Shown: one piece after another, positions 3,723-20,982 of the stretch
Position numbering within the stretch: the stretch's first letter is position 1
Layout of the letters: every line of letters starts with the position of its first letter
IMG/VR virus record: IMGVR_UViG_3300044591_001471
Span: 1 to 29,724 of that record
Direction: 5' to 3' (one strand)
DNA: 29,724 nt
Source of the DNA: a virus
Program-made: the position numbers and the translations under genes
Notes under the pieces: generated by a model
Database searches by the model: none
The model's input: the letters and a program-made list of their open reading frames with translations, nothing else
What the model was told of the DNA's origin: nothing

Positions 3723-3893
3723 TTACTTTCTTTCTGAGAGAATGATTTCATTTGCAGATAATTCCAATCTAATCTCGGTGTCTTCGTACCAACTTAAATC
3801 ATTAATAATATGTTCTGGTATTATCAAATAATACTCCCCAGAAATTGGATCGACTTGTAGGGGTTGAAAAATTTCTCCGGAATTTTTTCTCAT
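3723..3893 (-). CDS. Small AbrB/SpoVT-like protein
   Basis: A 56-residue protein (begins MRKNSGEIFQPLQVDPISGE). The segment EYYLIIPEHIINDLSWYEDT followed by a short strand and NEIILSE resembles the AbrB/MazE swapped-hairpin DNA-binding fold (strand, PxxIxxxLxWxxGDxI, strand). It is probably a small DNA-binding regulator or orphan antitoxin-like protein. A second AbrB-like domain occurs in the protein at 20383-20982. Confidence 0.68.
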   Translation of the reverse strand: MRKNSGEIFQPLQVDPISGEYYLIIPEHIINDLSWYEDTEIRLELSANEIILSERK

Positions 3894-5472: not shown

Positions 5473-5494
5473 GTGCCACTTCCTCAACTGGCAC
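5473..5494. repeat. Palindrome copy A (GTGCCASTT family)
   Basis: Plus strand: GTGCCACTT, CCTC, AACTGGCAC. It spans the stop codon of the ligase-like gene. Confidence 0.8.
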
Positions 5495-7498: not shown

Positions 7499-7698
7499 AC
7501 CTCATTCATAACTTTAAGGCGACGAATGATATCAAACACTTCCATATCATCCATATCAATTTCATTCATATCAACAGGAGCAAATTCTTCGAGATTTACT
7601 GTACCGTTGGTGTAGATTGGGGCATAATACAACTCATCCCCATCTTCTTGTCCCAAAGTATACACACAACCGTGATTGGTAGAAGTCAGAAAAATCAT
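7495..7698 (-). CDS. Small acidic cyanophage protein
   Basis: A 67-residue protein (begins MIFLTSTNHGCVYTLGQEDG) with a beta-rich N-terminal half and an acidic C-terminal half (FAPVDMNEIDMDDMEVFD). It resembles a small protein family of T4-like cyanophages with unknown function. It sits alone between two palindromes (C at its end, D upstream) and has a duplicated leader. Confidence 0.72.
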   Translation of the reverse strand: MIFLTSTNHGCVYTLGQEDGDELYYAPIYTNGTVNLEEFAPVDMNEIDMDDMEVFDIIRRLKVMNEV

Positions 7699-7700
7699 CG

Positions 7701-7721
7701 GAAATCTCAGGAACGAATGTA
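7701..7721 (-). repeat. Duplicated leader sequence, copy 2
   Basis: Minus strand: TACATTCGTTCCTGAG then ATTTC, immediately ahead of the ATG at 7698. It matches 7418-7440 except for two missing bases. Confidence 0.7.
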
Positions 7722-7733
7722 AACTAGCAGGAA

Positions 7734-7982
7734 TCAGGAACGTTTGGTAGTTTTCTGTGCCACTTTCACAACTGGCACATCGGTATCAACCAACGCTTGC
7801 AATTGCCCAACAATAGTATCAACGAACTGCAGAACAGTTTGAATCACCTTGCGGGTCTTTTCTGCCCCGTTGTTTTCAACATAGGCACGAACAGCAAACT
7901 GATACAAACCCACGACAATTGCAGCAATCGTGGCAACATTTAGCACCAGAGTTTGGTAGAATTTCGAGGCAAAGAGTTTCAT
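7734..7982 (-). CDS. Small membrane protein with palindrome-encoded tail
   Basis: An 82-residue protein from the ATG at 7982 (MKLFASKFYQTLVLNVATIA). It has one transmembrane helix at about residues 12-30 and an amphipathic helical C-terminal half (RKVIQTVLQFVDTIVGQLQA). The longer upstream frame crosses the promoter and palindrome E and is rejected. The tail VPVVKVAQ is encoded by palindrome D and closely matches the tails of the proteins at 16760-17236 and 15671-16243. Function unknown; its form would fit a small membrane effector. Confidence 0.7.
   Translation of the reverse strand: MKLFASKFYQTLVLNVATIAAIVVGLYQFAVRAYVENNGAEKTRKVIQTVLQFVDTIVGQLQALVDTDVPVVKVAQKTTKRS
7757..7778. repeat. Palindrome copy D (GTGCCASTT family), translated
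   Basis: Plus strand: GTGCCACTT, TCAC, AACTGGCAC. It lies within the last codons of the 82-residue membrane protein and encodes V-P-V-V-K-V-A-Q. Confidence 0.8.
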
Positions 7983-8033
7983 GATATTTTCGTGGTTGGA
8001 AGAGAATGTAGAGAATTTCTCAACCACGAATGT

Positions 8034-8062
8034 AGTATGGCACGGAGATATCACGTATGCAA
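8034..8062 (-). promoter_or_regulatory. Sigma70-like promoter (CATACT class)
   Basis: Minus strand: -35 TTGCAT (8057-8062), exact 17-bp spacer, -10 CATACT (8034-8039). It lies 52 bp ahead of the ATG of the 82-residue membrane protein and directly downstream of palindrome E. The leader includes repeats of TTGAGAAATTC. Confidence 0.65.
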
Positions 8063-8070
8063 TGGGTCTT

Positions 8071-8092
8071 GTGCCAGTTCTCCGACTGTCAC
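8071..8092. repeat. Palindrome copy E (GTGCCASTT family)
   Basis: Plus strand: GTGCCAGTT, CTCC, GACTGTCAC. It is the only copy not at a gene 3' end. It forms one edge of the composite inverted repeat at 8071-8171. Confidence 0.78.
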
Positions 8093-8152
8093 ATATTCTC
8101 AATAAGATCTTGTTATTGAGAATCAATAAGTATTACTAATTGAGAATATGTG
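8090..8152. repeat. Nested inverted repeats of ATTCTCAA
   Basis: An outer pair of perfect 14-bp arms (CACATATTCTCAAT at 8090-8103 and its reverse complement at 8139-8152) encloses a perfect 11-bp inverted repeat (ATTCTCAATAA at 8095-8105 and its complement at 8113-8123). The arms overlap, so alternative foldings compete. There is no T-run on either strand, so a terminator is unlikely. Further ATTCTCAA copies occur at 8824-8877. Confidence 0.75.
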
Positions 8153-8171
8153 CCAATCTACAAACTGGCAC
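8150..8171. repeat. Palindrome copy F (GTGCCASTT family)
   Basis: Plus strand: GTGCCAATC, TACA, AACTGGCAC. It begins immediately after the stop of the gene at 8173-8325 and forms the other edge of the composite inverted repeat. Confidence 0.75.
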
Positions 8172-8172
8172 A

Positions 8173-8325
8173 TTACCAATCGATATCGAATTCTTGTACC
8201 TTACAATGGACATCTTCACCTGGTTCGAGTTGCAATAACTCACGCCAGTTAATATCATCTAGGTCTAGATCATCATAACACATGATATCTAGTGTAACCT
8301 GTACGATACGCTTCTGTGCTATCAT
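8173..8325 (-). CDS. Small acidic conserved cyanophage protein
   Basis: A 50-residue protein (begins MIAQKRIVQVTLDIMCYDDL, then DLDDINWRELLQLEPGED). It resembles a small family of cyanophage proteins with a strand, a DDLDL/DW helix and a final strand ending in EFD. Function unknown. It ends two bases before palindrome F. Confidence 0.68.
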   Translation of the reverse strand: MIAQKRIVQVTLDIMCYDDLDLDDINWRELLQLEPGEDVHCKVQEFDIDW

Positions 8326-8355
8326 GATGCTCTCGTGTATGTGTGCTAGATTCTA

Positions 8356-8517
8356 TCATGCATAATGACGATATGCAAGTGATTCGTAATCTTGCCCATC
8401 TCGTGCATAATCCTCGTCGAGGTTCGCATCACCTTGCACATAATGCTCGTAGTATGAGTCCTCGTCGAGATTGTAATCGTTACTGAAAGAGTAGTCGAGA
8501 TCGTAGTCGTCGTACAT
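8356..8517 (-). CDS. Small Asp/Tyr-rich protein beside the CTCGWCGAG array
   Basis: A 53-residue, extremely acidic and Tyr-rich protein from the ATG at 8517 (MYDDYDLDYSFSNDYNLDED). Two CTCGWCGAG sites (8413-8421 and 8461-8469) are translated as Leu-Asp-Glu within NLDED repeats. Upstream lies a TTGCAA-N17-TACACT promoter whose spacer holds another site. A longer frame to 8595 crosses this promoter and is rejected. The protein may be a DNA mimic or a repeat-driven sequence of little function; I cannot tell. Confidence 0.55.
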   Translation of the reverse strand: MYDDYDLDYSFSNDYNLDEDSYYEHYVQGDANLDEDYARDGQDYESLAYRHYA

Positions 8518-8670
8518 AATGCTCGTCGAGAATGATTGATGACTGTTATAGTGTAGCACGATCTCGACGAGTTTGCAAGCCCTTATGATGCACAATCTCG
8601 TCGAGTCTCATAATGATATATATGTATTCTCGACGAGAAATGTTAAGATATGATTATAATTCTCGTCGAG
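8413..8670. repeat. CTCGWCGAG array (seven perfect sites)
   Basis: Perfect 9-bp near-palindromes CTCGTCGAG or CTCGACGAG occur at 8413-8421, 8461-8469, 8522-8530, 8563-8571, 8597-8605, 8629-8637 and 8662-8670. Half-sites (GTCGAG, TCTCGT) lie between them and up to 8730. Two sites are coding; five are in the 5' flank of the acidic gene. Flanking bases extend several sites to TCTCGWCGAGA. This looks like an array of binding sites for a dimeric protein. Confidence 0.8.
8550..8578 (-). promoter_or_regulatory. Promoter with CTCGACGAG in its spacer
   Basis: Minus strand: -35 TTGCAA (8573-8578), 17-bp spacer, -10 TACACT (8550-8555). The CTCGWCGAG site at 8563-8571 lies wholly inside the spacer and a second lies at 8522-8530 in the leader. 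This geometry is that of an operator overlapping a core promoter. It would drive the Asp/Tyr-rich gene at 8356-8517. Confidence 0.6.
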
Positions 8671-8705
8671 ATATGTGTGGGTCTCGTAGCAAATCTCGTG
8701 GGGGG

Positions 8706-8735
8706 TTGACATTTCGGGGTCTCGTGTGTTATAAT
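8706..8735 (+). promoter_or_regulatory. Plus-strand sigma70 promoter
   Basis: Plus strand: perfect TTGACA (8706-8711), 18-bp spacer, perfect TATAAT (8730-8735). It is the only strong plus-strand promoter I see, pointing into the direct-repeat region and then antisense to the end of the gene at 8948-9220. The spacer contains CTCGT, a half-site of the array. Confidence 0.6.
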
Positions 8736-8750
8736 GCGCGGACTAAACTC

Positions 8751-8774
8751 ACAAGTCTCAGAGGCATTTATAAG
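8751..8774. repeat. 24-bp direct repeat, copy 1
   Basis: Plus strand ACAAGTCTCAGAGG then CATTTATAAG. Identical to 8796-8819, start-to-start distance 45 bp. Read on the minus strand each copy begins CTTATAAATG, close to the late-promoter consensus. Confidence 0.85.
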
Positions 8775-8795
8775 GTTTTATCACACTTATAAAAT

Positions 8796-8819
8796 ACAAG
8801 TCTCAGAGGCATTTATAAG
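8796..8819. repeat. 24-bp direct repeat, copy 2
   Basis: Perfect second copy of the repeat at 8751-8774. The 21 bp between them also contain a CTTATAA. Confidence 0.85.
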
Positions 8820-8947
8820 ACTTATTCTCAACTATAATACTCAATTGATTCTCAATTAATTACACCTTATTGAGAATGTTATAGAAAGAACATATTAGTT
8901 TTTTAATACATTTTTTAATTAAATTTAACTTTATTTTGTATTATTCG

Positions 8948-9220
8948 CTACCATTTTCCAATCGGACACTCTGCAACAATGAACTTAGTCTTATGTTCTA
9001 ACCAACAACCACAGTGCCTACAACGATTCTGTTGTTGATGATAATATTCGCAAGTCTTACAAGTATCTAACCTTTGCTTCTTAACCTCATTACTAGCATA
9101 GATCTGATGTTCAGTATTTGGCACAACAACATCCTTAACAACCTCAAACGTGAACTGTGCCAGATTCTTTCCTTGTTCGATTAATGATGGAAACTCTTTC
9201 TCTTCTTTATTGTCCGACAT
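8948..9220 (-). CDS. Cys-rich (DUF6171-like) zinc-ribbon protein
   Basis: A 90-residue protein. The N-terminal half is helical (SLIEQGKNLAQFTFEVVKDV). The C-terminal half has a cysteine pattern C54xxC57, C67xxC70xC72 and C85 in ECPIGKW. This fits a small zinc-binding domain of the kind I know as DUF6171, common beside cyanophage tail-fibre genes. It is a paralogue of the protein at 9785-10102, and the two flank an oxygenase gene. It overlaps the oxygenase stop by 14 bp. Confidence 0.78.
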   Translation of the reverse strand: MSDNKEEKEFPSLIEQGKNLAQFTFEVVKDVVVPNTEHQIYASNEVKKQRLDTCKTCEYYHQQQNRCRHCGCWLEHKTKFIVAECPIGKW

Positions 9221-9806
9221 AGAACCATCCCGTTACAACATACTTTGTACCTTTCAGAACTAATCCACCACGATGGCAATGTGTTAATCCAGCAGGCCAA
9301 ATTAACAATGTTCCTTTTGATGGATTGATTCTCTTCTTATAATACAGAAACTCAGTCTCTCCTCCTTCAAAGTCATCATTCAAATAAAACATCCAAACAG
9401 CAACTCTAGATGAATGTTGAATAGAAGTATTCTCATCGTGCCAGACGTGATAACCACCACCAGCAGGAGTCTTTTGTACCTTCTGATTAATCGAATAAAG
9501 AACCAATGGTTTAAGATGACCAAAGACAGTCATATACTCATCTAGACATTCTTTCAGTACATTATTCACAATCTGTTGAGGATGAGTCGGTTTCATTGTT
9601 GATCCAAGTTCTGATAGATCAATTGCCCAATCGAATCGTCCTGCATTGGAATTCTCAAATTGTCCATCTTCACAGAAGACGGCATCCATATCGTGATAAT
9701 AATCAAATGCACCTATGATCTCATCACAGAGATTGAAATCTAGAATGTTTTCGTATGTTCCAATAAAGTCTTCATACGTTCCTTTTAGTTTAATTGATTC
9801 TTCCAT
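9207..9806 (-). CDS. 2OG-Fe(II) oxygenase (prolyl 4-hydroxylase-like)
   Basis: A 199-residue 2-oxoglutarate/Fe(II) dioxygenase. The iron ligands can be placed as H123-x-E125 in YHVWHDE and H176 in LTHCHRG; K188 in KGTKYVVTGW is the likely 2OG anchor. The segment FYLNDDFEGGETEF is typical of the P4H-like clade. It overlaps both Cys-rich neighbours (22 bp upstream, 14 bp downstream), so the three form one coupled unit behind the tail-fibre-like gene. The likely role is hydroxylation of a protein or other substrate; the target is unknown. Confidence 0.88.
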   Translation of the reverse strand: MEESIKLKGTYEDFIGTYENILDFNLCDEIIGAFDYYHDMDAVFCEDGQFENSNAGRFDWAIDLSELGSTMKPTHPQQIVNNVLKECLDEYMTVFGHLKPLVLYSINQKVQKTPAGGGYHVWHDENTSIQHSSRVAVWMFYLNDDFEGGETEFLYYKKRINPSKGTLLIWPAGLTHCHRGGLVLKGTKYVVTGWFYVGQ

Positions 9807-10102
9807 TCTTCTGCATCAGGGTACTTTTCAATGACTTTTTCGGCAAACAGATTACAATACGTATCATTCCAGGTTTCGGAACTTCGATCCCATTTTTCGA
9901 GAGGACAGAACTCATACAAGTGCTTGACCTTATTTGGCACATAACAATTACACAATCCACACATCTGGGATTCGGCATCATAATGGTCACAACTCAGGCA
10001 ATGTGCCAGTCTTTCCTTTTCTTCTTTGACCTTGACTGGAAATGCGAATCGAGCATCATTCATTTCACAGACAATATGAAAAATAAATTCAGACAGTTTC
10101 AT
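9785..10102 (-). CDS. Cys-rich (DUF6171-like) zinc-ribbon protein, second copy
   Basis: A 105-residue protein with the same cysteine layout as its neighbour at 8948-9220: C35xxC38, C48xxC51xC53, C66 in FCPLEKW. It has a C-terminal extension of about 35 residues with an amphipathic helix (FAEKVIEKYPDAEEWKNQL). The N-terminus is short and partly hydrophobic. It follows the tail-fibre-like gene and precedes the oxygenase. Confidence 0.75.
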   Translation of the reverse strand: MKLSEFIFHIVCEMNDARFAFPVKVKEEKERLAHCLSCDHYDAESQMCGLCNCYVPNKVKHLYEFCPLEKWDRSSETWNDTYCNLFAEKVIEKYPDAEEWKNQLN

Positions 10103-20189: not shown

Positions 20190-20383
20190 TAGAATTCACT
20201 TCTCCTTCTAGGTTTTTTAATTTCAGGTTTATAAAAACAATAATCAGGTAAATTTACATCTTGCCCTTCAAAGTAGTAACAGAGTTGTTCTACATCTTTT
20301 TGATATTTTGAATTATTGATTTTTGATTCAATAGTATTAAGATGGCAAACTATATTATACCCACATAATAAAAATTCAAACAT
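20189..20383 (-). CDS. Small protein, unknown
   Basis: A 64-residue protein (begins MFEFLLCGYNIVCHLNTIES; ends KPRRRSEF) with a hydrophobic start and a basic tail. It is coupled to the AbrB-domain gene upstream. The N-terminal hydrophobic stretch is short; a membrane anchor is possible but not clear. Confidence 0.68.
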   Translation of the reverse strand: MFEFLLCGYNIVCHLNTIESKINNSKYQKDVEQLCYYFEGQDVNLPDYCFYKPEIKKPRRRSEF

Positions 20384-20982
20384 TAACAGTCATCCATTCC
20401 CAGTGGTTGTATTACCTTACGGAGAAGATAAGACCCATCGCCCTGATCTGCCCACTCCACTTGATCTCCTTCTTTAAGATTTGCTGCTTCCAAAAGATCA
20501 TCAGGGAAAGATACAATATAATCTTCTAAATCATCACTTACTTCAACGGGAAGAACCCACTTCTTCACTTTATCTTGTTTTACACTACTCACAGTTGAAC
20601 CTTGATATTCCAAATCACTGTGCCCCCAAGGACGCATACCATCATCCTTTACCTCTTCTGGGTAATAATGCTCTTCCCAGAAGGAAGTCCAAGAGTTTTT
20701 ACATTCGGGTGATGGATCTTCCTTATCACACACAAGATTTTCTTTTTTCTCAACATATTCATCGTATGCTGTAATATGACCCTTACCATTACCATTCAGA
20801 AGAGCAAGAAGTTCATAGCAACGACCAGTATAATGCTTGAAGTAATGATATTCTTCATCTACAACATCCTTAATGGTATTGTATATTTCTTGTGGGCTTG
20901 CTTCTGCACTAGTCAGAGCATTTCTTACCCAAGTTTCAAGTTTTTCAAGAGAATACTTTTTATAATCAAAGTCAGAGGTCAT
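20383..20982 (-). CDS. Protein with C-terminal AbrB-like domain
   Basis: A 199-residue protein. Residues 1-100 are acidic with a helical start (EKLETWVRNALTSAEASPQE). Residues 142-190 (VLPVEVSDDLEDYIVSFPDD, then LLEAANLKEGDQVEWADQG) match the AbrB/SpoVT strand-FPxxLLxxxxLKxGDxVxW-strand pattern. Such domains bind DNA or form antitoxins. The N-terminal partner region is not recognised. It may regulate phage or host promoters. Confidence 0.75.
   Translation of the reverse strand: MTSDFDYKKYSLEKLETWVRNALTSAEASPQEIYNTIKDVVDEEYHYFKHYTGRCYELLALLNGNGKGHITAYDEYVEKKENLVCDKEDPSPECKNSWTSFWEEHYYPEEVKDDGMRPWGHSDLEYQGSTVSSVKQDKVKKWVLPVEVSDDLEDYIVSFPDDLLEAANLKEGDQVEWADQGDGSYLLRKVIQPLGMDDC

Follow-up and report, generated by a model that had tools for sequence, protein, structure and literature searches.

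A conserved array of short dyad sequences in T4-like cyanophages, a putative multi-site operator

Results

An array of seven short sites around a minus-strand promoter

The window analysed here (record IMGVR_UViG_3300044591_001471, 29,724 bp in full) is a fragment of a T4-like cyanophage, with S-SRM01 as the closest isolate by DNA similarity. It carries an array of short dyad sequences which, judging from the sequence comparisons reported below, is probably an operator with several binding sites for one sequence-specific regulator, the most likely being a homodimeric protein that represses early transcription of the phage. Seven exact copies of CTCGWCGAG (9 bp each) were found, all inside nt 8413–8670 (258 bp) and none elsewhere in the 29,724 bp, against a mean of 0.05 and a maximum of 1 in dinucleotide shuffles, thus bearing out an earlier note on this DNA that had listed seven perfect copies plus half-sites. 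The looser motif CTMGWCKAG retrieved the same seven positions and nowhere else in the window, and ACGAG half-sites occur on the minus strand at nt 8332, 8400, 8446, 8683, 8695 and 8721. Read along the minus strand, the sites at 8662, 8629 and 8597 precede a promoter with a site in its spacer, followed by a leader site, a 53-aa gene holding two further sites and a 50-aa gene (Table 1). The coordinates agree with the earlier description of the site at 8563–8571 as lying within the 17-bp spacer of TTGCAA-N17-TACACT, with the next one in the leader, and the sites at 8461 and 8413 are indeed translated as Leu-Asp-Glu in the Asp/Tyr-rich protein, as had been stated.

Table 1. Coordinates of the array and of associated features in the window.
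Feature	Position (nt)	Strand	Remarks
50-aa protein gene, phrog_12516	8173–8325	-	second gene behind the promoter
Asp/Tyr-rich 53-aa protein gene (MYDDYDLDY...LAYRHYA)	8356–8517	-	first gene behind the promoter
Putative operator site 1	8413–8421	-	inside the Asp/Tyr-rich ORF, Leu-Asp-Glu; gene strand CTCGACGAG
Putative operator site 2	8461–8469	-	inside the Asp/Tyr-rich ORF, Leu-Asp-Glu
Putative operator site 3	8522–8530	-	leader; ends 4 nt before the ATG (8515–8517)
Putative operator site 4	8563–8571	-	promoter spacer, 1 nt from the -35
Putative operator site 5	8597–8605	-	upstream of the promoter
Putative operator site 6	8629–8637	-	upstream of the promoter
Putative operator site 7	8662–8670	-	upstream of the promoter
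Sigma70-type promoter	8550–8578	-	-35 TTGCAA 8573–8578; 17-bp spacer 8556–8572; -10 TACACT 8550–8555
Divergent promoter TTGACA-N18-TATAAT	8706–8735	+	upstream of the array, facing away; counterparts recognisable in relatives
56-aa AbrB/MazE-like protein gene	3723–3893	-	best regulator candidate, from co-occurrence only

Promoters of the TTGACAAACTGCGCGTCTTATGATA type were found at the position equivalent to that of the divergent promoter in at least 52 of 118 relatives. In the window, this promoter would transcribe a stretch of 0.2 kb that holds no plus-strand gene (fold z-score -2.7), possibly giving a small RNA.

Other repeats lie next to the array. Two 45-nt tandem repeats with the late-promoter-like TTATAAATG lie upstream of it on the minus strand (nt 8751–8840) and are also present in relative L305 (nt 2419–2522), while S-SKS1 has 4.7 perfect copies of the 22-nt unit CTCTTATAAACCTTCTCTAATA at the equivalent place. 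A GTGCCA...TGGCAC hairpin recurs in the window at nt 5473, 7757, 8150, 15706 and 16795, and stands beside arrays in relatives too. Inverted ATTCTCAAT/ATTGAGAAT repeats were observed at nt 8095–8147 and 8844–8877, the second being conserved in S-SRM01 and in the array-free DSL-LC03. Further on, genes of the DUF6171/phrog_13558 type (nt 8948–9220 and 9785–10102) flank a 2OG-Fe(II) oxygenase gene.

Conservation of the module among cyanophages

Contigs were collected by pattern scans and by using the 50-aa protein as a query. Of the roughly 200 low-GC viral contigs so obtained, 182 carry the 50-aa gene, nearly all of these together with the array. The minus-strand promoter, the Asp/Tyr-rich 53-aa gene and the 50-aa phrog_12516 gene thus form a conserved module that bears the array on some 180 viral contigs, 118 of the modules being non-identical, from freshwater as well as ocean viruses. 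Isolates with the module are S-SRM01, S-T4 and S-SKS1, and a diverged form, each with a diverged Asp/Tyr-rich ORF, was found in P-SSM2 (four CTMGWCKAG in 138 bp, array at nt 66031–66168, gene PSSM2_098, about 3 kb from the AbrB-like gene) and in AG-345-F15 (four in 167 bp). Near-complete genomes have the sites in one to three nearby intergenic places only: of the 11 sites in the 240,842 bp of S-SRM01, every one falls within 85.57–91.01 kb, five of them in the orthologous region, another three ahead of gene QPX48142 and three in a 0.9-kb gap. No CTCGWCGAG site was present in S-PM2, S-CREM1, DSL-LC02 or DSL-LC03, and the one ACG-2014f genome tested showed five scattered CTMGWCKAG matches and no cluster.

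The spacer site is the best conserved copy of the array. In 33 of 51 diverse modules the site begins 0–1 nt past the -35 hexamer of a promoter with a 17–18 bp spacer (expected, 0.23), and this register holds while the -35 hexamer itself (TTGCAT, TTGCAA, TTGACA) and the -10 vary among relatives. S-SKS1 retains just the right half-site in its spacer, with the register unchanged, and both P-SSM2 and AG-345-F15 read TTGACA-AT-CTCGACTAG-N6-TATAAT. Lack of conservation in relatives, named by the earlier note as an argument against an operator, was therefore not what we observed, since sites, promoter register and dyad are retained in scores of relatives while their surroundings change. The same three features support, at the level of sequence, the reading of the array as having the geometry of a dimeric-repressor operator.

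The Asp/Tyr-rich gene is a real coding gene, as indicated by synonymous variation and fixed residues among 95 distinct sequences, the last 21 codons showing invariant residues and synonymous variation. Elsewhere in long ORFs, Leu-Asp-Glu is encoded by CTCGACGAG in a single case out of 74, so that the sites within the gene are kept as DNA, in line with the earlier remark on an array extending through coding sequence. Two diverged relatives (L212 and L114) have the sites and no Asp/Tyr-rich ORF. A protein-level origin of the sites, as Leu-Asp-Glu repeats, was rejected on both counts. As for the second gene, DSL-LC02, DSL-LC03 and S-CAM9 have phrog_12516 behind a plain promoter without array, which ties the array to the Asp/Tyr-rich gene and not to phrog_12516.

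Recognised sequence, strand bias and spacing

The core site is a nearly palindromic dyad of 9–11 bp. The noncoding sites comprise 408 perfect copies, 80 with a C3-to-A change and 24 with the mirror G7-to-T change, every other change being seen at most 7 times. Because mismatches are almost only of these two kinds, the recognised sequence is predicted to be the dyad CTMGWCKAG, with RATCTCGACGAGATY as its best form, and the mismatch pattern is the signature of a symmetric reader that tolerates CTAG in one arm. These tolerated CTAG arms, the strand bias described below and the extra intergenic arrays of relatives go beyond what had been noted before.

On the gene strand, A stands at the centre of 125 of 128 coding sites, 83 of 89 leader sites and 142 of 177 upstream sites, and outside the module 54 sites have A and 27 have T. 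The promoter-spacer sites show no such bias (45 A and 44 T; n = 89). Isolated ACGAG half-sites are likewise oriented, 291 being sense and 17 antisense, or 69 and 10 in the noncoding upstream part. This strand bias is the main feature that a simple symmetric dimer does not explain, and it may have its source in the duplication of one unit or in an orientation-dependent action. Spacing between adjacent sites peaks at 31–33 and 40–43 bp, about 3 and 4 helical turns, but helical phasing is suggestive only, as the peaks stem from related, non-independent sequences.

The bias for one strand relative to transcription, of sites and half-sites alike, is what would be expected if the regulator also halted the elongating polymerase at oriented intergenic sites, in the manner of the mycobacteriophage L5 repressor. 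In relatives, further arrays lie between co-directional genes, often just ahead of a start codon, and no strong promoter was recognised there by eye, which is also consistent with such an action. The array indeed resembles those of L5 and other cluster A phages in having many copies of one short site, located at promoters and in short intergenic gaps with an orientation tied to transcription. In L5, however, the sites are 13 bp long and asymmetric, a monomer is predicted to bind them, and they are spread over more than 20 positions in a temperate phage genome (PMC9283540), whereas the sites described here are nearly palindromic, are clustered in one to a few spots and belong to T4-like phages for which a temperate lifestyle is not known. 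Tandem duplication of an ancestral unit could also give the orientation bias. Since the sites are not asymmetric, we did not file the array under the L5 stoperators, and a roadblock of this type, although the strongest competitor of a promoter-occluding repressor, is considered somewhat unlikely.

Phage or host regulator

An activator, or a regulator of the host, might bind the array in place of a phage repressor. Several sites do lie upstream of both divergent promoters, and the phages yielded no RHH_1 protein, but the best conserved site occupies the 17–18 bp spacer, the usual position for a repressor. With regard to a host protein, S-PM2 has no array and yet is recorded on the host strain WH7803 like S-SKS1 and S-T4, so that a regulator of phage origin is favoured over one of the host. 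We rate an activator or host regulator as unlikely, and less probable than the oriented roadblock. A host regulatory element was itself rejected after a triple-array scan of 84,980 genomes, in which no cyanobacterial genome appeared among the arrays and these were mostly high-GC coding repeats. The search for such arrays proposed in the earlier note was thus positive for related phages, on the approximately 180 viral contigs reported above, and negative for the host, with no cyanobacterium among the arrays of that scan.

The genome-scan matches linked to the module were contigs binned in metagenome-assembled genomes of other phyla (L450 and L463). The cyanophage module is present on contigs assigned to Flavobacteriales and Sphingobacteriales, and an array with a 24-bp period on one assigned to Rhodobacteraceae. 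L450 and L463, and probably L422 as well, have the look of mis-binned cyanophage.

A role of the motif in RNA, as a translation or processing signal, would agree with the strand bias of the copies and with the leader site, which stands 2–5 nt ahead of the start codon in most modules, as well as with the second array of S-SRM01, where a site lies 6 nt before the next gene. Against it, the most conserved copy is in the promoter spacer and others are upstream of the promoter, a dyad-symmetric tolerance of mismatches is not needed in RNA, and a loop of 1 nt cannot form a hairpin; we regard this explanation as improbable. A search for known RNA families at nt 7500–9500 returned matches at chance level only.

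Repeated sites beside AT-rich DNA and other repeats could also be iterons of an origin of replication or belong to a partition site. This is very improbable, given that the sites occupy as many as three separate intergenic places in one genome, registered with promoters and variably spaced, and that the cumulative GC skew turns at the array only in S-T4, where the array is near a genome end; it does not do so in S-SRM01, S-SKS1 or G001. The origin was rejected for want of support from GC skew.

Candidate regulators

All ORFs of four array-bearing and five array-free phages were compared, a screen that could miss divergent regulators. The few families separating the two groups were the Asp/Tyr-rich protein, tail/structural proteins, unassigned proteins and an AbrB/MazE-like protein of 56–58 aa. 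The latter was found in all four array-bearing near-complete genomes, the five array-free ones giving one remote match (S-PM2, 9e-5). Used as a query, it matched proteins of P-SSM2, P-SSM5, AG-345-F15 and Sf-CH5/8 and, more weakly, of ACG-2014f isolates, and it was this search that led to the arrays of P-SSM2 (where the candidate is PSSM2_102) and AG-345-F15. On contigs retrieved by this protein alone, an array lies about 4.5–9 kb upstream in 15 of the 16 with enough flanking sequence. Sf-CH8 is the main exception, in that the Asp/Tyr-like, phrog_12516 and AbrB-like genes are close together and there is a degenerate spacer site but no array. Part of the co-occurrence is linkage, because the AbrB-like gene shares a syntenic block with the array.

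Of the two AbrB-like proteins that had been put forward as regulators, the 56-aa one, encoded about 4.5 kb downstream of the array, is thus kept as the best candidate, on co-occurrence only, and we propose it tentatively, at somewhat less than even confidence. The longer MazE-like protein (nt 20383–20982) was discarded from its distribution, being absent from the array-bearing S-SKS1 and S-T4 and present in the array-free DSL-LC03. The 56-aa protein is acidic (net charge -6), and no site was found within 320 bp upstream of its gene. Its S-SRM01 homologue matched phrog_661 at 1e-12. Pfam MazE_antitoxin gave weak matches in 13 of 31 homologues (best 4.9e-5) and none for the window copy, and a search of the PDB returned no sequence match to a solved structure. 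Like swapped-hairpin repressors of the AbrB/MazE type, the candidate is small, and it is related to PHROG 661; unlike autoregulated AbrB/MazE operons, it has neither a visible toxin partner nor a site at its own gene, and its DNA binding is putative.

A repressor of the RHH_1 family (PF01402) was also considered and rejected, none being found in 15 phage genomes.

Discussion

A site within a 17–18 bp spacer, accompanied by others near integral numbers of helical turns, is the classical geometry of repression by occlusion of RNA polymerase. A regulator bound to the spacer site of the array would exclude the host RNA polymerase from the promoter of the Asp/Tyr-rich and phrog_12516 genes, and the flanking copies, which share one face of the DNA with this site at distances of 3, 4 and 6 helical turns, would add cooperative occupancy. 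Repression rather than activation, cooperativity, the shut-off of early genes and the identity of the regulator are what we infer from this arrangement.

The array would work like a multi-operator repressor system, a known general kind. Lambda CI and LacI use a dyad operator overlapping the promoter together with helically phased auxiliary operators. The array similarly has a dyad overlapping the promoter and further phased sites; the operators of CI and LacI, however, are much longer, whereas the array consists of up to eight short sites, two of which are read as codons. Middle-mode control by MotA/AsiA in T4 and the overlapping promoters of cyanophages likewise bear on how T4-like phages pass from early to later transcription. 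MotA boxes, on the contrary, are activator sites at -30 and not spacer dyads. The literature search with the motif string gave no phage paper among the matches listed, and none was found for the locus tag PSSM2_098; as far as these searches reach, the motif is undescribed.

Cyanomyoviruses are without motA, asi, alt, modA and modB (PMC2984593), leaving a gap that a repressor of early promoters made by the phage would fill. According to the same review, early genes are transcribed by the unmodified host polymerase and the timing of middle genes results from overlapping early and late promoters (PMC2984593).

As a wider and more speculative proposal, which as a whole we hold to be fairly unlikely, T4-like cyanophages may shut off their early genes by means of their own small AbrB/MazE-like repressor, acting on CTMGWCKAG spacer arrays and also as an oriented intergenic roadblock. 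If true, lytic myoviruses would have a system akin to stoperators, conserved all the way from freshwater Synechococcus phages to the Prochlorococcus phage P-SSM2. The proposal is directly testable, including in the cultured model phage P-SSM2, because the conserved operator family comes with a named promoter, two target genes and a candidate regulator.
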